Origin: Streptomyces sp. TLI_105
Lineage (GTDB): Bacteria > Actinomycetota > Actinomycetes > Streptomycetales > Streptomycetaceae
Assembly: GCF_900105415.1 (NCBI RefSeq)
Contig: NZ_FNSM01000001.1
Location: forward strand, 5,729,501-5,793,500
Direction of reading: 5' to 3'
DNA: 64,000 bases
A model generated the notes under the pieces. That model had not been told where the DNA came from, did no database searches, and worked only from the letters and a program-made list of their open reading frames with translations. A program made the position numbers and the translations under genes. Positions 3,125 to 32,945 of the stretch are shown piece by piece; position 1 is the first letter of the stretch, and every line of letters starts with the position of its first letter.

Positions 3125-3240
3125 CACGGTACGCCAAAACGCTGACAACCGGTCCGTCCTGGAGCTGTATGCCCTTAGCCAGAGCTGGACTTGGACCCTT
3201 GAGGCAGTTCTCGCAGGTCAGCACACGGGGCAGACCCAAA

Positions 3241-3267: not shown

Positions 3268-3342
3268 CTTGATGGCGCAAGCGAGGTTCCTACGGCCTGA
3301 CGTGTTCCGAGGAAGCGGTGTTCTCGTTGCTGCTGGCGAGGA

Positions 3343-4922: not shown

Positions 4923-4934
4923 GCTGATCAGCTC

Positions 4935-5213: not shown

Positions 5214-5251
5214 AGGGCAGCCTCCGTCACCGGCGATCACTTTGAGTGAAG

Positions 5252-5282
5252 CTAGTTAACTAGATTAGAGCTAGTGGACTAG
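5252..5282. promoter_or_regulatory. Tandem CTAG-type operators in a divergent promoter
   Basis: Two 12-base inverted repeats, CTAGTTAACTAG (5252-5263) and CTAGTGGACTAG (5271-5282), are 19 bases apart centre to centre between two divergent transcription units, each encoding a GntR protein. The right-hand site ends nine bases before the ATG at 5292. GntR/UTRA proteins typically bind short palindromes with a central TA-rich core, so autoregulation by one or both GntR proteins is likely. Confidence 0.65.
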
Positions 5283-5291
5283 ATTTTCCAT

Positions 5292-6056
5292 ATGCCTGAG
5301 CAGCCGCCTTACCTCCGCATCGCCGAAGAACTGCGGCGGCGGATCGCGGAGCACGAGTGGACCCCTGGAGACCGGCTGCCCTCGCGGGCCCAGATCGGCC
5401 AGGAGTGCGGGGTGGGCGAGAACGTCGTCCGTCGGGCCCAGGAGCTGCTGATCTCCCAAGGAGTACTGGAGGGACGGGCCGGATCCGGGACCTACGTGGC
5501 CGAGCCCCGGCGGCGGGTGCGGATGGTGCGGTCCGCGGCGCGCGAGCAGCCGGATGGGTCACCGTTCCGGGCCGACATGAAGGCCGTGGGAAGGAACGGC
5601 GGCTGGGAGAGCCGGACCGATGCCAAGGTGCCCGCGCCGGCGGAGATCGCTGCGCGGCTCGGGATCGGTGAGGGCGAGCTGTGCGTCCGGACCGTGTACG
5701 AGTTCCTCGCCGACGGACGGCCCGTGCAGCTGTCGACGAGTTGGGAGCCGTACGACCTCACCGGCGGCACACTCGTCGTCCTGCCAGAGGGCGGGCCGCA
5801 TGCCGGGGCCGGCGTGGTGAACCGTATGGCCGAGATCGGAGTCACGGTCAGCCACGCCGTAGAGCAGCCCGAGCCGCGACAGGCGACCGCCGAGGAGGCA
5901 TCGCTCCTGGGAATCCAGAAGGGCGCCCTCGTCACCCGGATCCGGCGGACGTACTACAGCGACGAGGGGCGGCCTGTGGAGACGGCTGACATCGTCGTTC
6001 CTGCCGCCCTGTGCGAGATCGTCTACGAAATCCCTGTCAGTCGACGGCAGGGCTAG
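5292..6056 (+). CDS. GntR-family (UTRA) transcriptional regulator, divergent
   Basis: A 254-residue regulator. The winged helix is at about residues 5-75 (RIAEELRRRIAEHEWTPGDR, then SGTYV), and the UTRA effector domain spans about 95-250 (VYEFLADGRPVQLSTSWEP; VTRIRRTYYSDEGRPVETAD). There is no Shine-Dalgarno sequence before the ATG and the operators end nine bases upstream, so the mRNA may be leaderless. It is transcribed away from the small-gene operon. It is a different protein from the GntR inside that operon. Its effector is unknown. Confidence 0.88.
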   Translation: MPEQPPYLRIAEELRRRIAEHEWTPGDRLPSRAQIGQECGVGENVVRRAQELLISQGVLEGRAGSGTYVAEPRRRVRMVRSAAREQPDGSPFRADMKAVGRNGGWESRTDAKVPAPAEIAARLGIGEGELCVRTVYEFLADGRPVQLSTSWEPYDLTGGTLVVLPEGGPHAGAGVVNRMAEIGVTVSHAVEQPEPRQATAEEASLLGIQKGALVTRIRRTYYSDEGRPVETADIVVPAALCEIVYEIPVSRRQG

Positions 6057-6260
6057 GCCACCAGCTCTAGGGCGGGTGGCCAGGCCACGCCCTCGCATGA
6101 GCTTGTTGATGTTGCTGGGTCGCGCGGAGGGGCGCTGAACTACCCATCTCTTTAGGCCAGGTCATGCTGATGGGTATCGATCTGTTCAGTTGCGGTCGGC
6201 CACGCACTACGGTTGCGCCAAAGGTGTTGTGATCAGTGCGCACTGTGCACAGGAGTGTGG

Positions 6261-7847: not shown

Positions 7848-8147
7848 CTGGCCTGCATGGCTACTCATGCAGCGCATCTGACATCCGCGATCGACATCAC
7901 GCGGTTGGGTGCGGGCAGCGTTACGCGGTCACTAGCGCCATGACAGTACCTGGCAGTAGACCTCATGCAGCCGAGCCGATCGAACTTACAAGGCAGGTGT
8001 CGGCGCCGGGGTCCGTGCCAGATCCATGCCAGATCGAGCAGTCAGTCACGGTCAATTGGGGTCCGTGATGGTGCAGGCAAGTGCGGGGCCCGCAGCGTCG
8101 GTGTACGCCCGTTGACCAGTCAAGACCGCTGTGTGTGCGGTGCCAGG
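7848..8147. other. Gene-free end of the island with repeats
   Basis: No coding frame is convincing here. The stretch holds TGCCAGATC twice (8016-8024, 8027-8035), GGGGTCCGTG twice (8008-8017, 8058-8067) and the inverted pair TCACGG/CCGTGA (8046-8051, 8063-8068). It also holds a near copy of the tRNA core described separately. Repeats beside an attachment site are typical of recombinase or excisionase arm sites. Confidence 0.55.
7985..8005 (+). repeat. Imperfect second copy of the tRNA-Val attachment core
   Basis: CTTACAAGGCAGGTGTCGGC here matches CTTACAAAGCAGATGTCGGC at 8148 in all but two positions (19 of 21 over the full stretch 7985-8005 against 8148-8168). Beyond that the two diverge. 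Either an older, decayed attachment site or a recombinase-binding site that mimics the tRNA anticodon arm. Confidence 0.6.
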
Positions 8148-8192
8148 CTTACAAAGCAGATGTCGGCGGTTCGAAACCGTCCGCGCCCACCA
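8148..8192 (+). repeat. Attachment-site scar: 3' half of tRNA-Val(TAC)
   Basis: This 45-base segment is the 3' part of a tRNA: anticodon loop CTTACAA (anticodon TAC), 3' anticodon stem AGCAG, variable ATGTC, T arm GGCGG-TTCGAAA-CCGTC, acceptor CGCGCCC, A, CCA. The bases before 8148 (TGCCAGG) do not pair with AGCAG, and no 5' half or D arm exists upstream, so the tRNA is incomplete. A truncated tRNA 3' end bounding a low-GC island with restriction genes is the classic product of site-specific integration into a tRNA gene. The intact copy should be left of the window. Confidence 0.82.
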
Positions 8193-8197
8193 ATACG

Positions 8198-8229
8198 AAG
8201 GCCCCGGACCGATCATGGTCCGGGGTCTT
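8198..8229 (+). terminator. Terminator of the original tRNA-Val transcript
   Basis: A 13-bp stem (AAGGCCCCGGACC / GGTCCGGGGTCTT, one wobble) around GATCAT, six bases after the CCA end of the tRNA fragment. It marks where native chromosome resumes. Confidence 0.75.
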
Positions 8230-8283
8230 CCGTGTTCATCGGGGCGGTGGGTGGGGCGTTCGGTGGACCATGGGGGTGTGGCG

Positions 8284-8652
8284 GTGACCGTTTGGGTCGA
8301 TGGCTGGCAGATGCAGTGCTGTGGGGAGGGCTTCGCGGCAGGTGGTGTCGTCTCGTGGGATCTGGTGCGGGTCGATCCGGAGGATTACGCCGATGTCGTC
8401 GGGGAGCGGTGGGCCCCCGCGATCGACTTTCGTGAGGAGCATCACGGGCAGGAGCCGGACCGCGTGGCCGTCTCGCTGGAGGTGCTGACGATCGTCGAGG
8501 TCCACTGCCGGTACGAGACGTCCCCGGGCATGACCGCCTTCCCCGTGCCGGGTACGGCCGTGCTGGTTCCGGTCGAGGCGGCGGACGGGTGGGCCGAGGT
8601 CCGGCCGGGCGTTCGTTTCGCGGGGTATCTGGTGACCGCCCGCCTGGCATAG
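8284..8652 (+). CDS. DUF6578-like conserved protein
   Basis: A 122-residue protein starting MTVWVDGWQMQCCGEGF at GTG 8284, with GGGGG (8272-8276) seven bases upstream; GTG 8278 is an alternative. The opening WVDGWQMQCCG and the later DFREEHHG are features I associate with the actinomycete family DUF6578. The C-terminal half is beta-rich (GTAVLVPVEAADGWAEVRPG). No signal peptide. Function unknown. It is the first chromosomal gene after the island and is likely the original neighbour of the tRNA gene. Confidence 0.75.
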   Translation: MTVWVDGWQMQCCGEGFAAGGVVSWDLVRVDPEDYADVVGERWAPAIDFREEHHGQEPDRVAVSLEVLTIVEVHCRYETSPGMTAFPVPGTAVLVPVEAADGWAEVRPGVRFAGYLVTARLA

Positions 8653-8731
8653 GGCCGGCCGGTGCGGAGCTTCCGGCGATCATGGTCGGGGGTCTTCGGC
8701 GTGGCGGGAGCGGGTGTGGTCGGATGAGGGG

Positions 8732-9256
8732 ATGAGCACTCTGTACTTGTTTGCCAGCGCCGCCGAGCCCGTTTTCGACATCGCCCGCGTCATCGAGGAC
8801 GCGCAGGCCGACGGCTGGGACGTCTGCCTCGGGCTCACCCCCACGGCGGCGCGCTGGCTCGCCGGGTCGCTCGACGGGCTCGCCGTGCTCACCGGGCATC
8901 CCGTGCGGTGGGACTACGGGCTTCCCGGCGAGCCGGACGTGTGGCCGGAGGCCTCGGCGGTCCTCGTCGCGCCGGCCACCTTCAACACCGTGAACCAGTG
9001 GGCGCTCGGGATCGTGGACAAGTTCGTCGTCGGCGTGGTCGCGGAAGGTGTCGGCAAGGGGATTCCGATGGTGGCCATGCCGTGCGTGAGCGCGGCCTAT
9101 GCCCAGCACCCGCAGTTCGAGCGGTCCCTGGAGACCCTTCGTGGCGCCGGGGTCTCGGTGCTGTACGGCGAGGACGGGTTCCTGCCGGACCCGTCGGCGG
9201 GCTTCCCGTGGCGGTCGGCCCTCGATGCCGTCCGTGAGCGGGTGGCCGTCGGTTGA
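8732..9256 (+). CDS. Flavoprotein of the HFCD type (phosphopantothenoylcysteine decarboxylase-like)
   Basis: A 174-residue FMN-binding protein of the homo-oligomeric flavin-containing Cys decarboxylase fold. It starts with a Rossmann-like strand (MSTLYLFASAAEPVFDIARV). The family's PATFNTVNQWALGI segment follows at about 92-105 (AxxxTxNK-like), and VAMPCVSAAYAQHPQF lies near the flavin site. It is a stand-alone protein, not the CoaBC fusion, so its substrate is unknown. Start ATG 8732 has a close GAGGGG; a GTG at 8714 is an alternative. Confidence 0.82.
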   Translation: MSTLYLFASAAEPVFDIARVIEDAQADGWDVCLGLTPTAARWLAGSLDGLAVLTGHPVRWDYGLPGEPDVWPEASAVLVAPATFNTVNQWALGIVDKFVVGVVAEGVGKGIPMVAMPCVSAAYAQHPQFERSLETLRGAGVSVLYGEDGFLPDPSAGFPWRSALDAVRERVAVG

Positions 9257-9300
9257 GGGGCGGCCACCGTCGGCTGAGTGGGTGGCTGTCCGTTGAGGGG

Positions 9301-9342
9301 TGAGGGGGCGTGCCTCGAAGCTGAGGGGGCGTGCCTCGAAGT
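9301..9342 (+). repeat. Two tandem copies of a 21-base unit
   Basis: TGAGGGGGCGTGCCTCGAAG followed by one variable base is repeated twice in direct contact (9301-9321, 9322-9342), just upstream of the DUF4231 gene. Further GGGTGGCNGTC pieces precede it (about 9240-9300). Replication slippage is the simplest origin. Confidence 0.75.
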
Positions 9343-9377
9343 TGACGTGGACGCGTCCTGGCCGGTGTACTCCGGGC

Positions 9378-9914
9378 ATGTCTGACGTGGGGGACGCGCC
9401 CGAATCGGGGTCGCAGGGCGGCGAGATGACGTCGCAGCGGTACATCGAGACCAGGATCGTCCAGTATCAGGAGTGGTACGACGCCAAGGCGACCCGGATG
9501 AAGGCGATGCATCTGCGGATGCGGACCGTGTCCGTCGTCGGTGGCGCGCTGGTCCCGGTGTTCGTGAACCTGGACCTGGGGTTCGCGCGGGTCACCGCCA
9601 CGGCGCTGAGCGTGGTCGTCGTCGCCGCCATCTCGCTGGAGAGCGTGTACCGCTACCGGGAGCAGTGGAAGAACTACCGGTCGACGGAGCAGCTGCTGGG
9701 GCACGAACGCATCTACTTCGAGGCCAAGGTCGGGCCGTACCGCAACCTGGGCCGGCGCGACGCGTTCTCCGTCCTCGTCGCCCGCGTCGAGAAGGCCATC
9801 GCCAACGAGAACTCCGCCACCCTGAACGTCATGACCCTCGGCGGCCAGGTCGACTCCGATGTGCAGCAGCACGGGATTCCGGCCGCCCGGCAGGAGGCGG
9901 AGGAGGCCACGTAG
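9378..9914 (+). CDS. DUF4231 membrane protein
   Basis: A 178-residue protein with two closely spaced membrane helices, about 57-75 (VVGGALVPVFVNL) and 79-97 (TATALSVVVVAAISLESVY), followed by YREQWKNYRSTEQLLGHE, the charged segment characteristic of DUF4231 and related SLATT-type proteins. SLATT families are proposed pore-forming effectors in nucleotide-signalling conflict systems, but no sensor or second-messenger gene lies beside it here. ATG 9378 is chosen; there is no strong ribosome site. A 15-bp terminator follows immediately. Confidence 0.82.
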   Translation: MSDVGDAPESGSQGGEMTSQRYIETRIVQYQEWYDAKATRMKAMHLRMRTVSVVGGALVPVFVNLDLGFARVTATALSVVVVAAISLESVYRYREQWKNYRSTEQLLGHERIYFEAKVGPYRNLGRRDAFSVLVARVEKAIANENSATLNVMTLGGQVDSDVQQHGIPAARQEAEEAT

Positions 9915-9920
9915 CGCGCG

Positions 9921-9957
9921 CCTGCGGGCCCCGGCCCCGGGTGCCGGGGCCCGCAGG
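9921..9957. terminator. Bidirectional 15-bp terminator hairpin
   Basis: CCTGCGGGCCCCGGC and GCCGGGGCCCGCAGG pair perfectly around a 7-base loop between two converging genes ending at 9914 and 9978. Confidence 0.8.
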
Positions 9958-9977
9958 GTGTCAGCCGACCCGCGCGG

Positions 9978-10427
9978 TCAGCACCACTTGTAGTCGACCC
10001 GCGTCGAGTTGTACGAGCAGGTGTCGACCGTCGTGCCGTTCGACCTGCGCAGCTTCGCCGTGTCCCGGTCGTTGTTCCAGACGTACGCGGCACGGTTCTG
10101 GTACACGTTCGCGGCCGTGTTCGTGCCGCGGCCCGTGCGGACCGTCACGATCTTGCCCTTGCCGAGCGTGTAGTTGCCGAACGTGTACTTGTGGTTGGCC
10201 GCGTCCGTCAGCGTCCAGCCCCGCAGGTTGACCGCCGCGCCGGTCGTGTTGCGTATCTGGACGTACTCGGCGTTGAGGCTGCCGTTGGACCGGTTGTCCG
10301 TGCCCGGGCTGTCGTAGTAGATCTTGTACAGATGGACCGAGCCGACGGCCTGGGCCTGCGAAGGCAGGAGGAGGACGCCGGAGGCGGCGGCCGCGGTCAC
10401 GGCCGCGAGCGTACGTACGCGAAGCAT
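9978..10427 (-). CDS. Secreted lamin-tail domain protein
   Basis: A 149-residue exported protein. The signal peptide (MLRVRTLAAVTAAAASGVLL, cleavage after AQA) precedes a lamin-tail domain of about 115 residues with the typical pattern: NAEYVQIRNTTGAAVNLRGW, then YTFGNYTLGKGKIVTVRTG and AYVWNNDRDTAKLRRSNG. Lamin-tail domains form small Ig-like folds used for binding outside the cell, often beside nucleases or other exported enzymes; this one stands alone. GAGGGA lies about five bases before the ATG. Three cysteines sit in or near the C-terminus (TCSYN; KWC). Confidence 0.88.
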   Translation of the reverse strand: MLRVRTLAAVTAAAASGVLLLPSQAQAVGSVHLYKIYYDSPGTDNRSNGSLNAEYVQIRNTTGAAVNLRGWTLTDAANHKYTFGNYTLGKGKIVTVRTGRGTNTAANVYQNRAAYVWNNDRDTAKLRRSNGTTVDTCSYNSTRVDYKWC

Positions 10428-10551
10428 GAATGTCCCTCAGTTCTCTGCCGGACTCCCGCCGATGGGGCCCGGCGCACACAGGATATGCATGATCTTCACT
10501 TCTTCCGCACGGCTTCCGGCCAGTCCCGGTCGTCCGTCCTGGACTCGTCGC

Positions 10552-11024
10552 ATGGGCAGCGAACCGCTGCGGATCACCGTCCTCGGGTCCGCCACCCCCT
10601 TCCCCCAGCCGGGCAACGCCTGCTCCGGCTACCTCGTCGAGCACGGCGGTCTGGTCTGGCCGCCTTCGCTCTGCGCGTCGAGGACGGAGGCGGGCGTTAG
10701 CTCGTCTGCTCCGGGGACTGCGAGCCCTGTCCCGCGCTCGTCGAACTCGCCCTCGTCTGCGACCTGTTCGTCTGCGAGGCCGATGGCTCCGTGCCCGGGC
10801 ACCACTCGGCGGCGCAGGCCGGACGGAGTGCCGCCGACGCCCGCGCCGGCCGGCTCGTCGTGACCCACGTCGGGCCGGGGACCACTCCGGCGGAGGCCGT
10901 CGCCCTCGCCGCCGCCGAGTACTCCGGCGACATCGCCCACGCCGACCCCGGGCTGTGGTTCGAGGCCGGTGCCGGTGCCGGTGTCGATGTCGGGGCCAGA
11001 GCCGGGGGCGGAACCGGAGCCTGA
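10552..11024 (+). pseudogene. MBL-fold metallohydrolase, internally deleted and broken
   Basis: The start (ATG 10552) encodes PLRITVLGSATPFPQPGNAC, the opening of actinomycete MBL-fold hydrolases. At about 10660 the homology jumps, in another frame, to LAAFALRVEDGGG, hits TAG at 10698-10700, and continues VCSGDCEPCPALVELALVCD then GRLVVTHVGPGTTPAEAV, the C-terminal third of the same family. About 100 residues in the middle, including the HxHxDH metal site, are missing. Frameshift, stop and lost active site together make this a pseudogene. Confidence 0.75.
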
Positions 11025-11037
11025 GGCGGGTCCGGCC

Positions 11038-11796
11038 TCACGCGTCGAAGTCGTACTCCAGGACGTACGACGACGAGTCCAGCGTCATCTCGTTGAGCTC
11101 CACCGCCATCCCGGGCCCCGTGAAGGCCGTGCGGCCGATGAGCACCACCGGCGTCCCGAACTCCAGGGAGAGCCGGTCCGACTCGTCCGCCGTCGGCATC
11201 CGGCAGCGGATCTCCTCCCGGAACCGCACCGGCCGGTGCCCCAGCTCCGTCAGCCGCGCGTAGGTGCCGCCGGGGCCCGTGTCCGGCTCGGTGATCGGCG
11301 TACCGCGCACGAGCTCGGCGGAGAGGTACGACACGGAGAGCAGCACCGGCTTCGTGTCGAGGACGAAACGGCGGCTCCGGACGCAGACCGGTGCCCCAGG
11401 CGCCAGGTTCAGCGCCCCCGCGACCCGGTCGCCGGCCGCCGTCTCGCCCACCTCGATCTGGTCGACGACCAGCTCCCGGTCCTCGACGTCCGCCGACCAG
11501 ACCGAGCGGCCACTGCCCCACCGGTCCCCGGCGAGGCGCGGGATGCCCCGGCGGCGCAGCGGACGGAAGACCCGGACGAAGACCCCGGCGCCCTTGCGCG
11601 CCTCGGCGAGCCCCTCCGTGCGCAGCACGGACAGGGCCTGGCGGGCGGTCATGCGAGCCACGTCGTAGGTCGTCATGAGGTCGTTCTCGCCGGGGAGCCG
11701 CTCACCCGGCGCGAAGGCGCCCGACTGGATCGCGGTTCTCAACTCGTCGGCGATGCGCTGGTACTTGGGCCGACGAGCGCTGTCCTGGTCAGTCAC
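11038..11796 (-). CDS. GntR-family (UTRA) transcriptional regulator
   Basis: A 252-residue regulator. GTG 11796 is chosen because the family begins just before KYQRIADELRTAIQSG, and GGGAGTG lies upstream; the frame is open further. The winged helix covers about 10-75 (LPGENDLMTTYDVARMTARQ), and the UTRA domain about 95-250 (PVCVRSRRFVLDTKPVLLSV). A perfect 12-base palindrome (11901-11912) about 105 bases upstream is the likely operator. The divergent 74-codon gene at 11985 may share that control. Effector unknown. Confidence 0.88.
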   Translation of the reverse strand: MTDQDSARRPKYQRIADELRTAIQSGAFAPGERLPGENDLMTTYDVARMTARQALSVLRTEGLAEARKGAGVFVRVFRPLRRRGIPRLAGDRWGSGRSVWSADVEDRELVVDQIEVGETAAGDRVAGALNLAPGAPVCVRSRRFVLDTKPVLLSVSYLSAELVRGTPITEPDTGPGGTYARLTELGHRPVRFREEIRCRMPTADESDRLSLEFGTPVVLIGRTAFTGPGMAVELNEMTLDSSSYVLEYDFDA

Positions 11797-11900
11797 GGGT
11801 GGACCACTCCCTTCGTCTGCGGGACACCCTACGGCGCGCTCCTCGGCCCGGCTGCACGCCTGTACGCCGTCCCGCCCGGTCGATCCATCCATCGGGGGAC

Positions 11901-11912
11901 ATCTCTAGAGAT
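11901..11912. promoter_or_regulatory. Palindromic operator candidate for the adjacent GntR regulator
   Basis: ATCTCTAGAGAT is a perfect 12-base palindrome between the divergent GntR gene and the gene at 11985. Its CTAG centre is typical of HutC/UTRA-subfamily operators. Confidence 0.55.
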
Positions 11913-11984
11913 ACGTTGACAGGGCCCGGTCGCCGCGCTTCCCTGAGTGTCCCCAAGCTTCAGGAACCGGGACGGAGGGGATGC

Positions 11985-12209
11985 GTGCAGCCACTGCCCG
12001 AGGTCGGTGACCTCGTCCGCGACACCGCCACGGGGCGGGTCGGTTTCTATGTGGAGAGCGTCTCCGGACGCTTTCTGATCCGCGCCGTCCACGGTGGCGT
12101 CGAGTGGGAGGCCGAGCCCGTCGACGTCCAGCTCGCCACGCCCCTCCACGAACTGCGCGCCCGCACCGCCGAGATCAACGCACGGAGCAGACGCGGTCTG
12201 GGCGGGTGA
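11985..12209 (+). CDS. Small conserved hypothetical protein (74 aa)
   Basis: A 74-residue protein, MQPLPEVGDLVRDTATGRVG, with a compact beta-rich body (FYVESVSGRFLIRAVHGGVE) and a basic C-terminus. The start is GTG 11985 with GGAGGGG (11974-11980) four bases upstream. GDLVRDxxTGRVGxY is a pattern I have seen in small actinomycete proteins of unknown role. It lies divergent to the GntR gene across the ATCTCTAGAGAT palindrome and may be under its control. Confidence 0.72.
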   Translation: MQPLPEVGDLVRDTATGRVGFYVESVSGRFLIRAVHGGVEWEAEPVDVQLATPLHELRARTAEINARSRRGLGG

Positions 12210-12325
12210 GGGGGAGCGGCGACCGGGGGTGGTCGTTCCTGGGGATCGCGGGTCGTTCGGGACGGTTGCGGCCGGGACCGCGGCGAGCCCGGGTGATTGT
12301 CAGTGGTCCGCGCCACACTGGAGAC

Positions 12326-12649
12326 ATGTGCCGCAGCATCAAGACGCTCCGCCCGCCCGTCCTGCCCGAGGAGGCGACCGAGGACGACATCCGCGCCGCC
12401 GCCCTGCAGTACGTCCGCAAGGTCTCCGGCTTCCGTGCCCCCGCCGCCCACAACCGCGAGGTCTTCGAGCGGGCCGTGGACGAGATCGCCGACGCGACCG
12501 CGAGACTCCTCGCCGACCTGGAGGTGCGCGGCGTGCGCCCTGCCGCCGTCAGGACGCGGCAGCCTCGGCCGGACGTCGTCAGGACGCGGGAGCCTCGGCC
12601 CGTCGCCCTCAGGACGCGGGCGCGGGAGCCGCGGCCGGACGCCGTATGA
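12326..12649 (+). CDS. DUF2277 family protein
   Basis: A 107-residue protein. MCRSIKTLRPP, then DIRAAALQYVRKVSGFRAPA and the VDEIADATARLLADL helix match DUF2277, a family of small soluble proteins of unknown function that begin MCR(N/S)I. The last 35 residues are extra: three imperfect RTRxPRP repeats encoded by tandem GTCAGGACGCGG-type units, probably slippage-derived. Its 3' end overlaps the convergent DedA-type gene by 41 bases, so the repeat tail lies in DNA used on both strands. Confidence 0.85.
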   Translation: MCRSIKTLRPPVLPEEATEDDIRAAALQYVRKVSGFRAPAAHNREVFERAVDEIADATARLLADLEVRGVRPAAVRTRQPRPDVVRTREPRPVALRTRAREPRPDAV

Positions 12650-13238
12650 GGTACGCGGCGAGGCCGCCCGCCAGGAAGAGCGCGAGGGTCGACACCCCCG
12701 CGCTGAACCAGGTCGCGCCCAGCCACTGACCGCCCAGCCAGCCGAGCCCCACGCTGTACGAGGCCCAGGTCACGCCCGCCAGCGCCGACCACGGCAGGAA
12801 CTCCTCGACCCGCCGCTTCGCCGCGCCCGCGCCCAGCGAGACCACGGAGCGGCCGGCCGGGGCGAAGCGCGCGAGCACCACGAGCAGTCCACCGCCCCGC
12901 GCGAGCGCGGTGCCGAGACGTTCCTGCGCCAGTGAGAGGCGGCGCGAGCGTCCGATCGCCCGGTCCAGCCTGGCCCCGCCGCGCAGCGCCAGCCGGTACG
13001 CGAGGAAGTCGCCGAGCACCGAGGCGCCGGCCGCGCAGAGGAGCAGGGGGAGGAGCGACGGTACGCCGGTGGACGCCCCGGTGGCCGTCGCCGCCGCCGT
13101 GGCGGCGGTGATCACGAGGAAACCGCTCGGCAGCACGGGCAGGAAGACGTCGAGCAGGATCGACGTCGCCACGACCGGGTAGATCCATGGGCCGGCGGTG
13201 AGCGACCGCAGCGAGCCCAGGCTGTCGAGCAGATTCAC
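12609..13238 (-). CDS. DedA-family (VTT domain) membrane protein
   Basis: A 209-residue membrane protein with about five hydrophobic segments. ARFAPAGRSVVSLGAGAAK near residue 123 corresponds to the conserved re-entrant F/YxR...G signature of the DedA/VTT family. DedA proteins are linked to lipid-carrier flipping (undecaprenyl phosphate, phospholipids) and to envelope stress tolerance; the specific substrate here is not predictable. It is convergent with the DUF2277 gene (41-base overlap) and single-gene otherwise. Confidence 0.82.
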   Translation of the reverse strand: MNLLDSLGSLRSLTAGPWIYPVVATSILLDVFLPVLPSGFLVITAATAAATATGASTGVPSLLPLLLCAAGASVLGDFLAYRLALRGGARLDRAIGRSRRLSLAQERLGTALARGGGLLVVLARFAPAGRSVVSLGAGAAKRRVEEFLPWSALAGVTWASYSVGLGWLGGQWLGATWFSAGVSTLALFLAGGLAAYLIRRPAAAPAPAS

Positions 13239-13280
13239 AGGCCTGAGACTACGCGGGGGCGGGCGCCCGACCGCCGGTGG

Positions 13281-13434
13281 GTGCCCGGCGCCGGGCCGGG
13301 GAGAGGGGCCGGTCGGTGCCCGGGCCGGGGGAGAGGGGCCGGTCGGTGCCCGGGACAGGGGAGAGGGCCCGGTCAGTACCCGGGGCCAGGGAAGAGAGGC
13401 CGGTCAGTACTCGGGGCCAGGGAAGAGGGGCCGG
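13281..13434 (+). repeat. Five tandem 28-35-base repeats
   Basis: Units of the type GTGCCCGGGCCGGGGGAGAG + GGGCCGGTCG start at 13281, 13316, 13346, 13376 and 13407, drifting gradually (GTGCCC to GTACCC to GTACTC). The last runs into the terminator hairpin of the DoxX gene. Non-coding slippage array. Confidence 0.8.
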
Positions 13435-13459
13435 AAACCGTGCTGCGGTTTCCGGCCCC
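13427..13459 (-). terminator. 14-bp terminator hairpin of the DoxX gene
   Basis: GGGGCCGGAAACCG and CGGTTTCCGGCCCC pair perfectly around TGCTG, 23 bases beyond the DoxX stop codon. Confidence 0.8.
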
Positions 13460-13481
13460 TCCCGGTAGTCGTGCTCGTACG

Positions 13482-14003
13482 TCAGGCCGCGACCGGCGCG
13501 CCCCGATCCTCCCGTGCCTTCGCGGCCGTCGTCTCCCCGGCGCCGAAGAGCCGGTCGAGGGCCAGCGCGCCCGGGCCCGTGAACACGAGCAGCGCGAAGG
13601 CCCAGCAGAACATGGCCGCGCTCTCGCCGCCGTTCTGGATGGGGAGGAGCGACTCCGGCTGGTGGACCTTGAAGTACGCGTACGCCATCGAGCCCGAGGC
13701 CAGGAAGGCGGCGCTCCGGGTGCCGAGGCCGGCCAGGACCAGGATGCCGGCGCCGAGCTGGATGACGGCCGCGTACCAGCCCGGCCAGGTGCCGGCCGGT
13801 GTCGCGCTGCCGCCGAGGACGCCGAAGAGCGAGGAGGCGCCGTGGCAGGCGAAGAGCAGGCCGACGACGATGCGGAAGAGGCCGAGCGCGTAGGGCTGGG
13901 CCTGGTTCAGACGGGCGGTGAGGCTCGCGGGGGCGTCAGGGGAGCCGAGGGTGCCGGGCGTCGTGCCGGCCTTGGCGGTGTTCGGGGCGTTCAGGTCGGT
14001 CAT
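13482..14003 (-). CDS. DoxX-family membrane protein
   Basis: A 173-residue protein with four membrane helices: about 38-60 (YALGLFRIVVGLLFACHGAS), 78-98 (AAVIQLGAGILVLAGLG), 100-115 and 128-148. The RIVVGLLFxxHGxxxLFG segment is the DoxX signature. Family members take part in quinone or thiol redox partnerships (with sulfur oxygenase or SodA/SseA-type proteins), but the partner is not encoded nearby. ATG 14003 has AAGGAGT about nine bases upstream. A possible iron-box half-matched site lies about 75 bases upstream of the start. Confidence 0.85.
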   Translation of the reverse strand: MTDLNAPNTAKAGTTPGTLGSPDAPASLTARLNQAQPYALGLFRIVVGLLFACHGASSLFGVLGGSATPAGTWPGWYAAVIQLGAGILVLAGLGTRSAAFLASGSMAYAYFKVHQPESLLPIQNGGESAAMFCWAFALLVFTGPGALALDRLFGAGETTAAKAREDRGAPVAA

Positions 14004-26996: not shown

Positions 26997-27863
26997 CTAT
27001 TCCGGCTCGTACGTGACGTAGGTCCTGTGGGGCGCCTCACCCGGGGAGGGCTCTTCCGGCGCCTCGAATGTGACCTGGGCCTCGAAGTTCGCCCGCCGCG
27101 TGGCCCGCCGCAGCGCCCTCAGGAGCGCGCCACCGACCGCGAGGGTCAGGACGACGGTGAGAGCGGCCCGGCCGAGGTCCCAGCCGAGGGAGGTGGCGAG
27201 GACGTAGGCGAGGAAGCGGACCAGGTTCTCGTGGAGCGGGGCGCCCGGCTCGAAGGAGATCCCGCTGCTCAGGCCCTGGAGCAGGACCCAGCCCTGCAGA
27301 TTCATGACCGTGCCGTACGCGAACGCCGCCACGAACCCGTACGCGGACAGCATCAGCAGCTCGGCCCGGCCCCGCAGCCCGTCCGGGCCCGGCAGCAGCC
27401 CCGCGCCCATCGTGAACCAGCCCATCGACAGCATCTGGAACGGCATCCAGGGGCCCACCCCACCCGTGAGCAGCGCCGACGCGAACATCGTCACCGCCCC
27501 CAGGACGAAGCCGAAGCCCGGCCCGAGGACCCGGCCGCTCAGCACCATCAGGAAGAACATCGGCTCCAGACCGGCCGTCCCCGCCCCCAGGGGCCGCAGT
27601 GCCGCGCCGACGGCGGCCAGCACGCCCAGCATCGCCACCGCCTTCGCGTCCATCCCGCAGTCCGCGATCGTCGCCACCACCACCGCGACCAGCAGCGGCA
27701 ACAGCGCCGCGAACAGCCACGGCGCGTCCCCGGCGTGCGAGGTCACGGCGGAACCGGCGTCCGCGAAGAGAGGCCAACAGAAGGCGAGGACCCCCACGAG
27801 GGAGACGAGAACCAGCGCCGCGACGGAGCGGGGGCCCAGACGGACCGGGCGGGTCGTCCTCAC
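26997..27863 (-). CDS. ECF transporter S component (substrate-binding membrane subunit), likely for cobalamin
   Basis: A 288-residue membrane protein with about six to seven helices (ALVLVSLVGVLAFCWPLF; LLPLLVAVVVATIADCGM; VLGAVTMFASALLTGG). It is the S component that determines the substrate of an energy-coupling-factor importer. The GTG at 27863 overlaps the stop of the ATPase gene (GTGA), so it is the last gene of the five-gene operon. A cobalamin riboswitch at the operon head suggests vitamin B12 or a precursor as substrate; the sequence alone does not prove it. A 50-residue cytoplasmic tail (EAPEEPSPGEAPHRT) follows the last helix. Confidence 0.85.
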   Translation of the reverse strand: MRTTRPVRLGPRSVAALVLVSLVGVLAFCWPLFADAGSAVTSHAGDAPWLFAALLPLLVAVVVATIADCGMDAKAVAMLGVLAAVGAALRPLGAGTAGLEPMFFLMVLSGRVLGPGFGFVLGAVTMFASALLTGGVGPWMPFQMLSMGWFTMGAGLLPGPDGLRGRAELLMLSAYGFVAAFAYGTVMNLQGWVLLQGLSSGISFEPGAPLHENLVRFLAYVLATSLGWDLGRAALTVVLTLAVGGALLRALRRATRRANFEAQVTFEAPEEPSPGEAPHRTYVTYEPE

Positions 27864-29629
27864 AGCGCCGCCTCCACCTGCTCGACCGTGAGCCACGGCT
27901 GCGGCGCCAGGATCTTCGCCACCTGCGGCGAGAACGCCGGCGAGGACACCACGACCTCGGCCGTCGGGCCGTCCGCGACCACCTCGCCGTCCGCGACGAT
28001 CACCACCCGGTGCGCCAGCTCCGCGGCCAGCTCCACATCGTGCGTGGCCAGCACGATCGCGTGCCCCTCCGCCGCGAGCTTCCGCAGATGGGCCACCAGG
28101 CGGGCCTTGGCCGCGTAGTCCAGGCCGCGCGTCGGCTCGTCGAGCAGGAGCAGCGGCGGGCGGCCGGTCAGGACCACGGCCAGCGCGAGCGCGAGCCGCT
28201 GGCCCTCGGACAGGTCGCGGGGGTGCGTGTCGTCCGCCACCCCCGGCAGCAGCTCCTCCACCAGCGCCCGGCAGGTCCCGGGCGTCGCGCCCGCGTCCGC
28301 GTCGGCCGCCGCGCACTCGCCGGCGACCGTGTCCGCGTACAGCAGGTCCCGCGGCTCCTGCGGAACCAGGCCGACCTGGCGGATCAGGTCGCGGGGGTCG
28401 GTGGCGTGCGGGGCGCGCCCGGCGACCCGGACGCTGCCGCGCGTCGGCTCGATCATGCCGACGAGCGTGGAGAGCAGGGTGGATTTGCCGGCGCCGTTGC
28501 GGCCCATGAGCGCGATGGTCTCGCCGGGGGTGACGGTCAGGTCGATCCGGCGGAGGGCTTCGACGCGGCCGCGGCGGACGGCGAGGCCTTCGACGAGGAC
28601 CAGGGGGGTGGTGGGGGCGGGGCCGGTGGGGTGGGTGCGGCGCCGCTTGAAGGGGTTGATTCCCCCGCCCCTCCCCCTACGCCTGGCGGCGTGGGGGGAC
28701 CCCCACTTCCCGTCACCGGGACTCCGCCCCGGACCCCGGTTCTCAAGCGCCGGACGGGCTGAAAGATCCGGCCCCGCCGGCGTTCGAGGCGCGGGGGGCT
28801 GGGGGAGAAGCCCCGCAGGGTCCCGCCCCTCCAACCTCGCCTTCAGTTCTCCCGCCCGTCGCCTCGCGTCCCGCACCGTCAGCGGCAGCGGGTCCCAGCC
28901 CGCCAGGCGGCCCAGGGACACCACCGGCGGGTGCACCGGGGAGATCGCCATCATCTCGGCCGGGGGGCCCATCACGGCCTCCGGCAGGAGGAGGACCTGG
29001 TCCGCGTACTGGACGACGCGCTCCAGGCGGTGCTCGGCGAGGAGGACCGTCGTGCCCAGGTCGTGGACGAGGCGCTGGAGGACCGCGAGGACGTCCTCCG
29101 CCGCCGAGGGATCGAGCGCGGAGGTCGGTTCGTCGAGGACGAGGACCTTGGGGTGCGGGGTCAGGACGGAGCCGATCGCGACCCGCTGGCGCTGGCCGCC
29201 GGAGAGCGTGGCGATCGGGCGGTCGCGCAGTGCGGCGAGGCCCAGGAGGTCGAGGGTCTCCTCGACGCGGCGCCGCATGACGCCGGGCGCGAGCCCCAGG
29301 GACTCCATGCCGTAGGCGAGCTCGTCCTCGACCGTGTCGGTGACGAAGTGCGCGGACGGGTCCTGCCCCACCGTGCCCACCAGGTCGGCGAGCTCGCGCG
29401 GCGGATGCGTGCGGGTGTCGCGGCCGTCGACCGTCACCCGCCCGGTCAGGGTGCCGCCCGTGAAGTGGGGGACGAGGCCCGAGACCGCGCCGAGGAGGGT
29501 CGATTTGCCCACGCCGGACGGGCCCACGAGGAGGACCAGCTCGCCCTCGGGAACGGTGAGGTCCACGTTCCGCAAGGTCGGCTCGGCGTCCTCCTCGTAC
29601 CTCACCGAGACGTTCTCGAAGCGGATCAC
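27860..29629 (-). CDS. ECF transporter ATPase, fused A and A' subunits
   Basis: A 589-residue fusion of two ABC ATPases. First domain: Walker A GPSGVGKSTLL, signature LSGGQRQRVAIGS, Walker B VLVLDEPTSALD, H-loop AEHRLE. Second domain: Walker A GRNGAGKSTLL, degenerate signature LSEGQRLALALAV, Walker B LLLLDEPTRGLD, H-loop ATHDVE. They are joined by a linker at about residues 275-335 that is low-complexity and encoded partly by a Streptomyces-type intergenic repeat. It powers the T/S membrane pair. GTG 29629 overlaps the stop of the T-component gene and is preceded by AAGGAG (29635-29640). Confidence 0.92.
   Translation of the reverse strand: MIRFENVSVRYEEDAEPTLRNVDLTVPEGELVLLVGPSGVGKSTLLGAVSGLVPHFTGGTLTGRVTVDGRDTRTHPPRELADLVGTVGQDPSAHFVTDTVEDELAYGMESLGLAPGVMRRRVEETLDLLGLAALRDRPIATLSGGQRQRVAIGSVLTPHPKVLVLDEPTSALDPSAAEDVLAVLQRLVHDLGTTVLLAEHRLERVVQYADQVLLLPEAVMGPPAEMMAISPVHPPVVSLGRLAGWDPLPLTVRDARRRAGELKARLEGRDPAGLLPQPPAPRTPAGPDLSARPALENRGPGRSPGDGKWGSPHAARRRGRGGGINPFKRRRTHPTGPAPTTPLVLVEGLAVRRGRVEALRRIDLTVTPGETIALMGRNGAGKSTLLSTLVGMIEPTRGSVRVAGRAPHATDPRDLIRQVGLVPQEPRDLLYADTVAGECAAADADAGATPGTCRALVEELLPGVADDTHPRDLSEGQRLALALAVVLTGRPPLLLLDEPTRGLDYAAKARLVAHLRKLAAEGHAIVLATHDVELAAELAHRVVIVADGEVVADGPTAEVVVSSPAFSPQVAKILAPQPWLTVEQVEAAL
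28655..28830 (-). repeat. Streptomyces-type palindromic repeat inside the ECF ATPase linker
   Basis: CTCAAGCGCCGGACGGGC (28742-28759) and GCCCCGCCGGCGTTCGAG (28771-28788) form an imperfect inverted repeat, with GGGGGACCCCCAC- and CTGGGGGAGAAGCCCC-type hairpins beside it. This arrangement is familiar from intergenic repeats of Streptomyces. Here it is read through in frame between two ABC domains. Confidence 0.6.
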
Positions 29630-30768
29630 GCGATCTCCTTGGGTTTCGGCGCCACGAACGCCGGGATCAGGCCCACCAGGACCGACACCGCCGGCCACAG
29701 CGGCAGCTCCGGCGCCTCCAGGGGGACGACCCCGGGGTGCAGCGCCTCGGGGGCGTAGGCGTTCGCCCGGATCATCAGGACGGCGACCGCCGCCCCGGAG
29801 CCCGCGACCAGCCAGGCCCGCGCGCCCCAGCGATCGGGCCGGTAGCGCGTACGGACGGTCCGGCGGCCGCCGAGCCGGAGCCCGGCCGTCGCGGCGAGGA
29901 GCCCGGCGCCGAGCAGCGGCAGCCCGTACCCCGCGCCCTCCGCCGCGAGCAGCCCGTACGAGCCGGCGCACACGCCGAGGAGCCCGCCCAGGGTCAGGAC
30001 GTTCGTGGTGCGCCGCACCGCCGGCGGGACCTGCGCCGTCCGCCCGTACCCGCGCGCGTCCATCGACGCGGCGACCGCGATCGACCGCTCGAGCGCGCCC
30101 TCCAGGACCGGCAGGCCGATCTGGAGCACCGCCCGCACCCCGCCCGTGGGCCGGCCCCGCAGCCGACGGGCGGTCCGCAGCCGGGCCACGTCGGCGACCA
30201 TGTTCGGCGCGAAGGTCATCGCCACGACGACGGCGACCCCGGCCTCGTACAGCGCCCCCGGCAGCGACTTCAGCAGCCGCGCCGGGTTGGCGAGCGCGTT
30301 CGCGGCGCCCACGCAGATCAGCAGGGTCGCCAGCTTGGCGCCGTCGTACAGCGCGAACACCAGCTGCTCGGCCGTCACCCGGCCCCCGATCCGTACCCCC
30401 TGGGCCCAGTCGGGCAGCGGCACCTCGGGCAGCGTGAACAGCGCGTGCGTACCGGGGACGGGCGAGCCGAGCAGCAGCGAGAACACCACCCGCAGGGCCA
30501 CGACGAACAGGCCGAGCTTCACGAACGCGCCGTACGAACGGGCCCAGGGCGCGTCCGTGCGCCGGGCCGCGACGACGTACCCGGCGACCCCGACGAGCAG
30601 CCCGAGCAGCAGCGGGTTCGTGGTCCGGGAGGCGGCGACGGCCAGGCCGAGCGCCCACAGCCACCACGCGCCCGCGTGCAGGGCGTTGGCGCGGCTCGCC
30701 TCGGGGGCCGTGAGCACGGAGGCCGTGGACACCCGGAGGCCACGGAGGACGCTACGGGCCGCACTCAT
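29626..30768 (-). CDS. ECF transporter T component (EcfT/CbiQ type)
   Basis: A 380-residue membrane scaffold that couples ATPase motion to the S component. Membrane helices occur at about 28-80, 85-105, 150-170, 190-210 and in the C-terminal third. The cytoplasmic coupling region contains the family's two short Ala-Arg-Gly motifs, seen as MDARGYGRT and the LRTARRLRGRP region. ATG 30768 overlaps the stop of the upstream secreted-protein gene (ATGA). Its own stop overlaps the ATPase start. The C-terminal extension with extra hydrophobic segments makes it longer than a typical 260-residue EcfT. Confidence 0.9.
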   Translation of the reverse strand: MSAARSVLRGLRVSTASVLTAPEASRANALHAGAWWLWALGLAVAASRTTNPLLLGLLVGVAGYVVAARRTDAPWARSYGAFVKLGLFVVALRVVFSLLLGSPVPGTHALFTLPEVPLPDWAQGVRIGGRVTAEQLVFALYDGAKLATLLICVGAANALANPARLLKSLPGALYEAGVAVVVAMTFAPNMVADVARLRTARRLRGRPTGGVRAVLQIGLPVLEGALERSIAVAASMDARGYGRTAQVPPAVRRTTNVLTLGGLLGVCAGSYGLLAAEGAGYGLPLLGAGLLAATAGLRLGGRRTVRTRYRPDRWGARAWLVAGSGAAVAVLMIRANAYAPEALHPGVVPLEAPELPLWPAVSVLVGLIPAFVAPKPKEIA

Positions 30769-31508
30769 GCGCGCCGGCGGGCCTTCCAGATCGCCGCCCC
30801 GCCGAGGGCCAGGACGGCCGCCCCGCCGACGAGCACACCGAAGGACGGGCCGCCGCCCGAACCCTCCGAAGCCGCCGGAGCGGCGGACGCCGGGGTCTTC
30901 CCCGTGACCTGCTCGCCGCAGCCGTGCGCCGGGTAGCCCGCGATCCCGCACAGCATGGCCGAGCTGTCGTACCGCAGCGGCTTCGCCACCGCGGCCAGCG
31001 CCTCCGCGCCCGTCGCGTCCTCGCGGACCTCCGCGCAGCCGACCTTGATCAGCTTCTTCGGCGGGGCCTCCCCGGGCGGCGCGTCCGCGGGGCCGCCGAA
31101 GTCGACGACGACCGCGATCCGCTTGGTGCCGTCCTTCTTCTCCACGTCCCCGCAGATCCCCGGGAAGTCGGGGGCGACGGAGGGCAGGGAGGTGTCGTCC
31201 GTGCCGTTGCTGATCGCGAAGCGGAAGCCGAGGGCGTCGCCGTCGGCGGGCCGGGCGGTCGCCGGGCCCTGCGTGGCGTACGTCCACGGCTTCCCGCCGT
31301 CGCTCTCCCAGAACGACCAGTAGCGGTAACCGGCCGCCTGCGCCGGGGCCGCCGCGACCGCGGTCAGGACGAGCAGCGCCCCGGCCACGGCGCCCGCGAC
31401 CTTCATCCCGGCGATCTTGATTCCCGCGATCCGCGTCCTCGCGATCCGCGTTCCCGCGATCCGCGCCCCCGTGACCTTCGCTCCGGAGACCCTCGCTCCG
31501 GCGGTCAC
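30765..31508 (-). CDS. SCO2322-family exported protein, likely B12-capture partner (transcobalamin beta-domain-like)
   Basis: A 247-residue exported protein. Start GTG 31508, overlapping the stop of the barrel protein gene. An odd N-terminus of repeating TRIAGTRIAR/IKIAGMKVAG units leads into the signal sequence (ALLVLTAVAAAPAQA). The mature part starts GYRYWSFWESDGGKPWTYAT and PADGDALGFRFAIS, a W-Y-G-D pattern resembling DUF4430, the beta domain of transcobalamin and intrinsic factor. Two cysteine pairs (ICG, GCAE; LCG, GCGE) may be disulfides. It ends with a membrane helix (GVLVGGAAVLALGGAAIW) and KARRRA. Recognised as the SCO2322 family; the B12 role is inferred from the riboswitch and operon. 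Confidence 0.82.
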   Translation of the reverse strand: MTAGARVSGAKVTGARIAGTRIARTRIAGIKIAGMKVAGAVAGALLVLTAVAAAPAQAAGYRYWSFWESDGGKPWTYATQGPATARPADGDALGFRFAISNGTDDTSLPSVAPDFPGICGDVEKKDGTKRIAVVVDFGGPADAPPGEAPPKKLIKVGCAEVREDATGAEALAAVAKPLRYDSSAMLCGIAGYPAHGCGEQVTGKTPASAAPAASEGSGGGPSFGVLVGGAAVLALGGAAIWKARRRA

Positions 31509-32755
31509 TTCTTGCGGCCGCTCACGAGGAAGCCGACGCCGACGCCGACGAGCGTGCCGATGCCGATGATCCACCAGACGTCGAAGCCGGACCCGGCCTC
31601 GTCACTGGTGGAGGAGGCGGAGGTGTCCGGCGTCTTGGGCGCCGGACCGGTGGCGTTGAGCTGCTCGACCAGGTCCGCCGTGCCGAACTCGCGCGGGTCG
31701 GTGTCCGTCGCGCGGGCCGCCAGGATCAGCTGCGCGTAGGCGGCCGGGCCGCCTTCCTTCGCCCAGGCGGCGGAGTTCTTCTCCAGCCACGCCAGGGCCG
31801 GCTCGGTCTCCTTGGCGGCGCCGGCGGCGGCGAGCGCGACGACGGCGTCGGCGGTGTTGCCGATGTCGGGCTGCTCGGTGGTGTCGGTGGCGCCCGGCAT
31901 CGGCGGCAGGGTGAGGTGGCCGGTCTTCGCGAGCGCCTTCGACAGGTAGGAGGCGCCGTTCAGCGCGGCCCGCTCGACGGTCGGCTTCGACAGGTCGGTG
32001 CAGGTCGGCGGCTGCTCGGGGGAGGCCTTGGTGGCGACGACGCTCTTGCCGAGCCCGGCGAGGGTGGCCGCCGCGGTGGCGTCGGCGTTGGCGAGGAGCT
32101 TGCCGGTCTTGTCCGGCTGGTACGCGAACGCCCCGGCGCCCTCCTTGTCCGAGCAGGGCAGGGCGAAGGTGAGGAGCGCGTCGTACGGGGTGCGGCCCTC
32201 GGCGGAGGTGAACGAAACGGGCCGCACGCCGATCGCGGCGAGCGCGCCGACGACGACCGAGGTGGAGTTGGCGTCGCTCGCGCCGCCGACGCCGTAGCCC
32301 CAGCCGCCGTCCTTGTTCTGCACGCTCCGCAGCCAGTCGGAGCCGGCCTTGACGGCCTTGTCGATCGCCTCCGGGGCGGCGGCCTGACCGCGCACGGCGC
32401 GGAGCGCCTGGACGGCGACGGCGGTGGCGTTGGTGTCCCGCATCGTCTTCGCGTCGCAGGGCTGCGACACGTCCGCGCGGTACGAGGCGAACGAGCCGTC
32501 GGCGCACTGCTGGCCCAGGAGCCAGTCCACGGCCCGGTCGGCGGGCTGGTAGCCGGTGCCGCGCTGGGCGAGGAAGGCGAGCGACTGACGCCAGACACCG
32601 TCGTACGTCGGGTCCTTCGTGCCGTACAGGCCGGACGGGAGCGTGCCCGTGGACGGCGACGGCGACGGCGCGGCGGAGGCCGCCCCGGCTGCTGCGGTAC
32701 CGAGCACGACTGCGGCGGCGGCGAGCGCGGCGGCGCCGCGGCGGACGGTGTTCAT
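31505..32755 (-). CDS. Exported alpha/alpha-barrel protein (prenyltransferase/squalene-oxidase repeat), transcobalamin alpha-domain-like
   Basis: A 416-residue exported protein, first gene of the riboswitch operon. Signal peptide MNTVRRGAAALAAAAVVLGT to ASA. The body has repeated helical pairs with QW-type turns (LLGQQCADGSFASY; VQNKDGGWGYGVG), typical of terpene-cyclase-like alpha6/alpha6 barrels, the fold of the alpha domain of intrinsic factor and transcobalamin. The C-terminus is a membrane anchor (VWWIIGIGTLVGVGVGFLVS) with GRKK. No cyclase DxDD motif is visible, so binding rather than catalysis is likely. GGAGAGGG (32759-32768 region) precedes the ATG. Operon control by cobalamin supports B12 binding. 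Confidence 0.85.
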   Translation of the reverse strand: MNTVRRGAAALAAAAVVLGTAAAGAASAAPSPSPSTGTLPSGLYGTKDPTYDGVWRQSLAFLAQRGTGYQPADRAVDWLLGQQCADGSFASYRADVSQPCDAKTMRDTNATAVAVQALRAVRGQAAAPEAIDKAVKAGSDWLRSVQNKDGGWGYGVGGASDANSTSVVVGALAAIGVRPVSFTSAEGRTPYDALLTFALPCSDKEGAGAFAYQPDKTGKLLANADATAAATLAGLGKSVVATKASPEQPPTCTDLSKPTVERAALNGASYLSKALAKTGHLTLPPMPGATDTTEQPDIGNTADAVVALAAAGAAKETEPALAWLEKNSAAWAKEGGPAAYAQLILAARATDTDPREFGTADLVEQLNATGPAPKTPDTSASSTSDEAGSGFDVWWIIGIGTLVGVGVGFLVSGRKK

Positions 32756-32784
32756 GGGGCCCTCTCCTGCGGCCGGGCACCGGC

Positions 32785-32945
32785 ACGCCTCGGGGGCACC
32801 AGGCTCCGGCTCCGTATTCCTCGACGGTGCCGGCGGTCACGTCCCGGGCGGGGCATTCCGACTCGCCGCCCCGGTCGGGGCGGCTCACGGCTGCGGGGTC
32901 AGCGCCGGATTCCCACCGGCTTCCCCCCGTACGGGCATGATGACG
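32785..32945 (-). ncRNA. Cobalamin riboswitch
   Basis: On the minus strand the leader contains CCGGTGGGAATCCGG (32905-32919), preceded by GGGAAG. Then come CTGACCCCGCAGCCG (32888-32902) followed by TGAGC, and the B12 box GAGTCGGAATGCC (32852-32864). These are the conserved core elements of the cobalamin riboswitch in the right order. It ends shortly before the ribosome site of the gene at 32755, so it would repress the whole transport operon when cobalamin is plentiful. Outer stem ends are approximate. Confidence 0.92.

Follow-up and report, generated by a model that had tools for sequence, protein, structure and literature searches.

The closest described relatives of the system examined here are predicted bacterial scavengers of vitamin B12. 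In the accessible part of the report by Burroughs et al. 2007 (PMC1796856), transcobalamin is described as holding B12 between a toroid and a β-grasp domain, and bacterial SLBB proteins resembling transcobalamin, in many cases joined to a toroid and encoded alongside CbiO and CbiQ, were predicted to scavenge B12 in Gram-positive bacteria and to be the origin of the animal carriers. As far as that text goes, the non-animal members of the clade are found in planctomycetes and low-GC Gram-positives, and more rarely in euryarchaea; toroid and SLBB domain are fused in one chain (stand-alone SLBB domains are also reported); and the bacteria concerned usually lack key enzymes of B12 synthesis. ECF-CbrT of Lactobacillus delbrueckii is a cobalamin importer of the energy-coupling factor (ECF) type whose S component, CbrT, itself binds the substrate, with no extracellular capture protein described in the available portion of the paper (PMC5997447). 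Here we analyse a riboswitch-controlled operon of five genes within a 64,000-nucleotide stretch of the Streptomyces sp. TLI_105 genome (the window, by which we mean that whole stretch), which probably encodes a system for capture and import of a corrinoid (B12 or a precursor), with the two halves of a transcobalamin-type carrier on separate, apparently permuted proteins.

Like the systems of Burroughs et al., the operon pairs an SLBB-like exported domain and a toroid with genes of the CbiO/CbiQ type, and B12 scavenging is again the proposed role. It differs in that toroid and β domain are separate proteins, that the host is an actinobacterium and has genes for B12 synthesis, and that both domains appear permuted, a feature for which we found no mention in the main text of that paper (PMC1796856) as accessible. 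The ECF-type importer is what the locus shares with ECF-CbrT. With animal transcobalamin, intrinsic factor and haptocorrin (PF01122 plus PF14478) it shares an α/α toroid and a putative β-grasp-like domain, both extracellular, and a link to B12. The animal carriers are single polypeptides, whereas here two separate membrane-anchored proteins are coupled to an ECF importer, neither of them matches either Pfam family directly, and both domains are permuted in comparison with another actinobacterial operon type (the second type), in which the β domain has DUF4430-like order.

The two exported proteins are members of the NCBIfam families SCO2321_fam (NF053823) and SCO2322_fam (NF040672), which take their names from S. 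coelicolor locus tags and carry no function. In the open-access literature searched, no paper naming SCO2322 to SCO2325 was found, and among the matches listed the sole paper on SCO2321 concerns transdermal peptides. No description of the actinobacterial split or permutation was found there either, and since subscription papers lie outside that literature an earlier description is possible. The sequence-only reading of this DNA, an earlier note made from the letters alone, had tentatively called the system undescribed, which is partly wrong. The general idea of a toroid and a transcobalamin-like protein acting with an importer for B12 is already in print, as a prediction in the accessible text of Burroughs et al. 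2007 (PMC1796856); the split, doubly permuted form is, as far as we found, new.

Organisation of the operon

The riboswitch and all five genes lie on the minus strand, in the order SCO2321 family, SCO2322 family, EcfT, fused EcfA-A' and EcfS.

32852..32925, minus strand: cobalamin riboswitch aptamer (RF00174, model positions 46-168 of 189); covariance-model score 40.9 bits; about 100 nt ahead of the first gene
31505..32755, minus strand: SCO2321-family exported protein, 416 aa, with signal peptide, α/α toroid, linker and C-terminal membrane anchor (NF053823, 556 bits)
30765..31406, minus strand: SCO2322-family exported protein, 213 aa from the ATG at 31406, with an alternative GTG start at 31508 (NF040672, 210 bits)
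29626..30768, minus strand: EcfT, CbiQ-like transmembrane coupling protein (PF02361, E 0.0019, 18.3 bits, cut-off 25; assigned also by position and conservation)
27860..29629, minus strand: EcfA-A', two fused ABC ATPase domains (strong ATPase domain matches)
26997..27863, minus strand: EcfS, substrate-specificity component, 288 aa (PF12822, 28.1 bits, cut-off 30.7)

RF00174 is the sole Rfam match within the window at gathering thresholds, its 40.9 bits exceeding the gathering score of 31.5; the cobalamin riboswitch of the sequence-only reading is accepted by Rfam. The two ATPase domains, EcfT and S component that characterise an ECF transporter are together in one operon, the ATPase domains by strong matches and EcfT and EcfS by Pfam matches below cut-off combined with conserved gene order, and the full ECF importer proposed earlier stands on this basis. 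EcfS is 45-75% identical to 16 relatives drawn from both operon types. The order SCO2321-SCO2322-EcfT-EcfA-EcfS recurs across Actinomycetota and is therefore not due to chance.

The five genes had been described as overlapping. Read from the sequence, three junctions do overlap, with ATGA at SCO2322/EcfT and GTGA at both EcfT/EcfA and EcfA/EcfS. The remaining junction, SCO2321/SCO2322, overlaps (GTGA, start 31508) only if the GTG start is used, and is uncertain because the ATG at 31406 yields 213 aa, a usual length for the family. Between SCO2321 and this ATG (31406-31508, minus strand) lies an in-frame run of near-repeats (AGARIAGTRIARTRIAGIKIAG), which could be an unusual N-terminal extension of SCO2322 or a spacer.

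SCO2322 and its probable circular permutation

SCO2322 consists of a signal peptide, a predicted β-grasp-like domain and a GPS-CTERM-like anchor (20 bits, below the cut-off of 28). The AlphaFold model of its ectodomain (predicted local distance difference test, pLDDT, 93.2; predicted template modelling score, pTM, 0.89) comprises, in order, two strands, a short helix, two strands, a helix and two short strands. This predicted order would fit a permuted β-grasp; searches of solved structures gave no match.

A class-wide search found four genomes (G013, G036, G054 and G140) in which the two ends of the SCO2322 profile are hit in the opposite order. Relatives with this other order are exported proteins that start with a strand-helix-GFICRIDGKP part and end with a YWSYWH...WxYS...EGWSF part. 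The corresponding halves of SCO2322 are as follows.

31206..31337, minus strand: N-terminal half of SCO2322 (YRYWSFW...DALGFRF), equivalent to the C-terminal half of the other-order relatives (native columns 3-44 match columns 78-120)
30906..31154, minus strand: C-terminal half of SCO2322 (C..KRIAVVVDFG...C...GAEAL...LCGIAGYP..GC), equivalent to the N-terminal half of the other-order relatives (native columns 71-134 match columns 10-68)

Profile comparison of native SCO2322 with these relatives gives two swapped matches, with scores of 92.4 and 49.1, and permutation of SCO2322 in silico gives a single match over 99 columns with a score of 132.7. Against a narrower profile of the other-order relatives the permuted form scores 98.6 and the unpermuted form 81.2 plus 29.2; with a second alignment of the narrower set the permuted form scores 101.5, the maximum in 100 column-shuffled trials being 23.3. 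Four cysteines are invariant in SCO2322. By our reading of the alignments, two of these align with cysteines of the other-order relatives, and the remaining two are close to the equivalent cysteines, one being next to the permutation cut. The precomputed Pfam annotation has one entry, PF28005, for SCO2322 and for the majority of the other-order relatives listed; a local Pfam scan gave no match to it. We conclude that SCO2322 is likely to be a circular permutant of the domain found in the other-order actinobacterial ECF operons.

Direct tests for DUF4430 (PF14478) by hmmscan gave no match for SCO2322, nor for six permuted and four native family members, and the circular permutation is the likely reason for the failure with SCO2322. 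When the two orders are merged into one domain, its alignment to a DUF4430 profile built here from a set of loci spans both halves in DUF4430 order with a score of 31.9 (maximum of 80 shuffled controls, 17.2). In searches of the PDB a DUF4430 profile of actinobacterial sequences reaches transcobalamin-1 and transcobalamin-2 with E values of only 0.075 and 0.25. At the Streptomyces locus L175 one of the proteins encoded by an operon of the second type matches DUF4430 of Pfam (E 4.7e-8); at L177 a DUF4430 match is obtained via a custom profile only. Taken together these comparisons suggest a modest link between SCO2322 and DUF4430. The DUF4430-type domain of the sequence-only reading is retained in the sense of a transcobalamin-like domain reached via permuted relatives, and is lost as a direct match to Pfam or to a solved structure.

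The second ECF operons at L175 and L177 (Streptomyces genomes G089 and G234) comprise an other-order β protein, EcfT, EcfA, EcfS, an other-order toroid and the DUF4430-matching protein, and thus encode three putative corrinoid-capture proteins each. Public annotation labels several other-order β proteins (e.g. P0178, P0206 and P0231) 'flagellar hook-length control protein FliK' or 'ABC transporter substrate-binding protein'; the FliK label is probably a misannotation.

The SCO2321 toroid

The signal peptide and membrane anchor of SCO2321 were assigned by reading the sequence. Its AlphaFold model is all helical (pLDDT 92.0, pTM 0.92), and the predicted fold is an α6/α6 toroid, one that is common to many other families. 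Toroids dominate the Foldseek matches. They include chain 4zrp_B, from a transcobalamin:CD320 entry, at rank 50 (E 6.6e-4), behind terpene cyclases and complement TED domains. The α/α barrel that the earlier note had recognised in this protein is thus borne out by the model.

As with SCO2322, the two halves of the domain are exchanged relative to the second operon type, with boundaries that are approximate and taken from profile comparison.

32030..32644, minus strand: first half of the SCO2321 toroid, equivalent to the second half in the other operon type
31640..32029, minus strand: second half of the SCO2321 toroid, equivalent to the first half in the other operon type

Permutation in silico raises the score from 250 to 363 and brings SCO2321 into one 279-column alignment with the other-order toroids. 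Internal repeats were considered as a source of this result and rejected, since self-comparison scores 122, to be set against the gain from 250 to 363 and the single alignment. The permutation is measured against the second operon type only, as α/α repeats leave the register relative to animal transcobalamin ambiguous; the other order may resemble that of intrinsic factor. Of the toroids from the other operon type, 4 of 14 match Cobalamin_bind (PF01122), the best with E 0.17; permuting the sequences of the SCO2321 kind gave no such match (0 of 4).

Distribution and gene order

SCO2322_fam is found in 125 of 296 genomes of the class, 103 of them above the cut-off. SCO2321_fam is found in 142 of the 296, just 27 above the cut-off, the weaker matches presumably including cyclases. 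Among 80 loci of named records the toroid directly precedes SCO2322 at 45, SCO2322 occurs without a toroid at 22, and eight belong to the other type. Removal of these eight, of three permuted loci without upstream sequence and of two cut at the edge leaves 45 + 22 = 67 informative loci; an SCO2322-only call required at least 1.8 kb of upstream sequence.

At most loci with room for them, EcfT, EcfA and EcfS come next, on the same strand. The exceptions are L066, L119, L126, L137 and probably L122 in the 80-locus set, and L050, L054 and L058 in the first set. L058 (genome G275) carries a diverged SCO2322 relative without adjoining ECF genes, in a genome without a match to the window's EcfS. Five records (L069, L071, L084, L100 and L137) have names or bins that look wrong: metagenome records titled as the Bifidobacterium breve group fall with Nanopelagicales-like records where they could be placed (L069, L071), and L137, titled Rhodobacteraceae, has a β domain identical to one in a Nitriliruptoraceae record.

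Riboswitches at other loci and in the host

Riboswitches of the cobalamin clan (RF00174, RF01482 and RF01689) lie upstream of capture or importer genes at 25 of the 47 loci submitted to Rfam, or 24 of 46 distinct loci, L062 and L079 being the same. This supports a corrinoid function. By set, the counts are 9 of 12, 4 of 11 and 3 of 4, with 7 of 10 for paired loci and 2 of 10 for SCO2322-only loci; the set with 4 of 11 includes three short loci (L007, L014 and L021) that may not reach the riboswitch. In three genomes the SCO2321-SCO2322 pair lies apart from the ECF genes. Each of the two places has its own riboswitch in G203 and G080, and in G029 one is above threshold at the pair only.

In the host genome (8.9 Mb; the nearest named relatives of its SCO2322 are from Streptomyces) four further cobalamin riboswitches score above the cut-off; they lie ahead of the genes for a CbiM/CbiQ cobalt importer, for CobD, for CobN and for ribonucleotide reductase. 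The CobD locus also holds further cobalamin-synthesis-like genes, and a sixth match falls below the cut-off. With CobN, CobD and riboswitch-controlled cobalt uptake, this organism is probably a B12 producer that places the capture and import operon under B12 control as well.

At a Micromonospora locus (L064, positions 2173-13899), tandem toroid-β-toroid-β genes and an ECF importer are accompanied by four cobalamin riboswitches in a space of 12 kb.

Proposed function

We consider it rather probable that the operon encodes a corrinoid capture-and-import system that works by joint binding and hand-over. The basis for this is the riboswitch, the gene order and its conservation, the folds of the predicted models, the two permutations relative to the second operon type and the regulon context; corrinoid binding, joint clamping and transfer to EcfS are the parts that we infer. 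When corrinoid is scarce, a riboswitch of this family would permit expression of the operon. The membrane-anchored SCO2322 (permuted transcobalamin-like β-grasp) and SCO2321 (permuted toroid) would then bind the corrinoid outside the membrane and, where both are present, would most likely sandwich it as transcobalamin does. They would pass it to EcfS, and EcfT and EcfAA' would power import with ATP. If this is correct, SCO2321 and SCO2322, widespread exported proteins named only by locus tag, gain a testable role in B12 acquisition, and many Actinomycetota, B12 producers included, gain a candidate B12 importer. Circular permutation would suggest why database searches miss the transcobalamin relation of both proteins, and the need for one chain and one order could be tested on this putative vitamin carrier, for which nature offers split, tandem and permuted versions.

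Several observations weigh against this proposal. SCO2322 occurs without SCO2321 at 22 of the 67 informative loci, about a third (a fraction biased by sampling, 9 of the 22 being from Kribbella), and in all four SCO2322-only genomes searched there is no toroid match of the SCO2321 kind elsewhere. Among SCO2322-only loci, a riboswitch exceeds the threshold at just 2 of 10. For the β domain, Foldseek and VIA searches with the SCO2322 model gave no transcobalamin match (best Foldseek E in the PDB, 0.91); the merged domain reaches an hhalign probability of just 70% against DUF4430, and the DUF4430-order relatives alone reach 14-38% with scores of 22.9 and 26.5. Permutation barely alters the score of SCO2322 against DUF4430 (30.3 native, 30.8 permuted; at most 17.7 in 60 shuffles), and the signal therefore comes mainly from one half, the helix and next strand. 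For the toroid, a sequence-level identity as Cobalamin_bind falls away, with PF01122 matched by 0 of 44 SCO2321 relatives; Cobalamin_bind was also matched in 0 of 198 genomes, though positive controls gave no match either, and the nearest PDB sequence relatives of SCO2321 are squalene-hopene cyclases. The EcfS profile found no match among solved S components, the two matches listed (E 1.4 and 1.5) being unrelated proteins.

The occurrence of SCO2322 without SCO2321 at 22 of 67 loci, and the lack of a toroid in those four genomes, mean that joint clamping is not general or obligatory. The two-piece B12 clamp of the sequence-only reading is accordingly kept as two separate genes and given up as an obligatory device; its recognition of two transcobalamin-like halves was probably right, although direct database tests reject the second. 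It would also suit the data if SCO2322 acted as a receptor by itself and the toroid were an optional second half. In a stronger form, SCO2322 alone would be the corrinoid receptor and SCO2321 would be an optional partner that serves, for example, in cell-wall tethering or in storage or protection of bound corrinoid and makes up no part of the binding site. The importer genes do follow at most SCO2322-only loci, a small genome of the f25 family (L060) has SCO2322-EcfT-EcfA-EcfS only, and no f25 genome is among the SCO2321_fam matches. All 27 genomes with SCO2321_fam above the cut-off, however, also have SCO2322_fam, and the pair stays together with its own riboswitch where the ECF genes are elsewhere (L050, L054 and L197), so that we think this form rather unlikely.

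We are similarly doubtful that the importer takes up, in place of B12, a precursor of corrinoids or some other pathway compound (cobinamide, pseudo-B12 or dimethylbenzimidazole). A host with CobN, CobD and riboswitch-controlled cobalt uptake, which probably makes B12, would suit such an import, as would an EcfS with no match among solved structures, but animal transcobalamin-like domains bind whole corrinoids, and cobalt already has its CbiM/CbiQ importer in this host. That SCO2321 is an exported enzyme unrelated to corrinoids, a terpene cyclase or a glycan-active α/α toroid, seems very improbable. Its best sequence and structure matches are indeed squalene-hopene cyclase and drimenyl diphosphate synthase; against this, the protein is exported and is encoded beside SCO2322 under cobalamin riboswitches, and DxDD, the catalytic motif of class II terpene cyclases, is present in none of the 44 aligned members, for which reason we reject the terpene cyclase assignment.

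Evolution of the two operon types

Trees were obtained by quick searches, with support from the Shimodaira-Hasegawa-like approximate likelihood ratio test (SH-aLRT) only and no bootstrap, the toroid halves being joined at an approximate cut. In the EcfT+EcfS tree (66 rows, after removal of the duplicates L107, L093, L124 and L062 and of rows in which EcfT or EcfS was short or absent) nine operons of the other order group together (96*), close to a single Nitriliruptoraceae row, and two other-order f14 loci are nested among the permuted operons, next to a permuted locus of that family (98*). In the toroid tree (70 rows in a common register) the 54 permuted rows other than L138 lie on one side of a branch (100*). 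Permuted L138 sits among the other-order rows; it is a long row of odd composition and its placement is unsure, so that a separate permutation of the toroid there is likely without being secure. In the β-domain tree (107 rows) one branch splits the two forms (support 89), on few columns and with a warning of long branches, and hints weakly at a single permutation.

Re-permutation in place was tried as an explanation of the other-order f14 loci and rejected. Their toroids and β domains join the other-order clade and their EcfT+EcfS join the permuted operons, and because the capture domains and the importer fall in different clades, cassette exchange is the simpler account. The simplest reading of the trees would be one main permutation per protein, perhaps a second for the toroid, and exchange of capture cassettes on a common importer. 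Tandem copies occur as two β domains in a row at four Lentzea loci and as toroid-β-toroid-β at L064 and L144 (Micromonosporaceae), and such duplicates are a likely route to circular permutation.

A wider reading, to which we give not quite even weight, joins these elements. In actinomycetes a transcobalamin-type clamp would have been split into two surface proteins and both permuted, the β domain once and the toroid once or perhaps on two occasions (basally in the SCO2321 clade and, independently, in a Nitriliruptoraceae lineage), with tandem duplicates as the route. Two interchangeable capture cassettes, the one permuted and the other with DUF4430-like order, would have replaced each other on a shared ECF importer for B12, and the permuted pair would clamp the corrinoid and hand it to EcfS.

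The neighbours of the operon in the window, by reading of the open reading frames, are a divergent protein-kinase-like gene upstream and a separate gene for a small secreted protein downstream.

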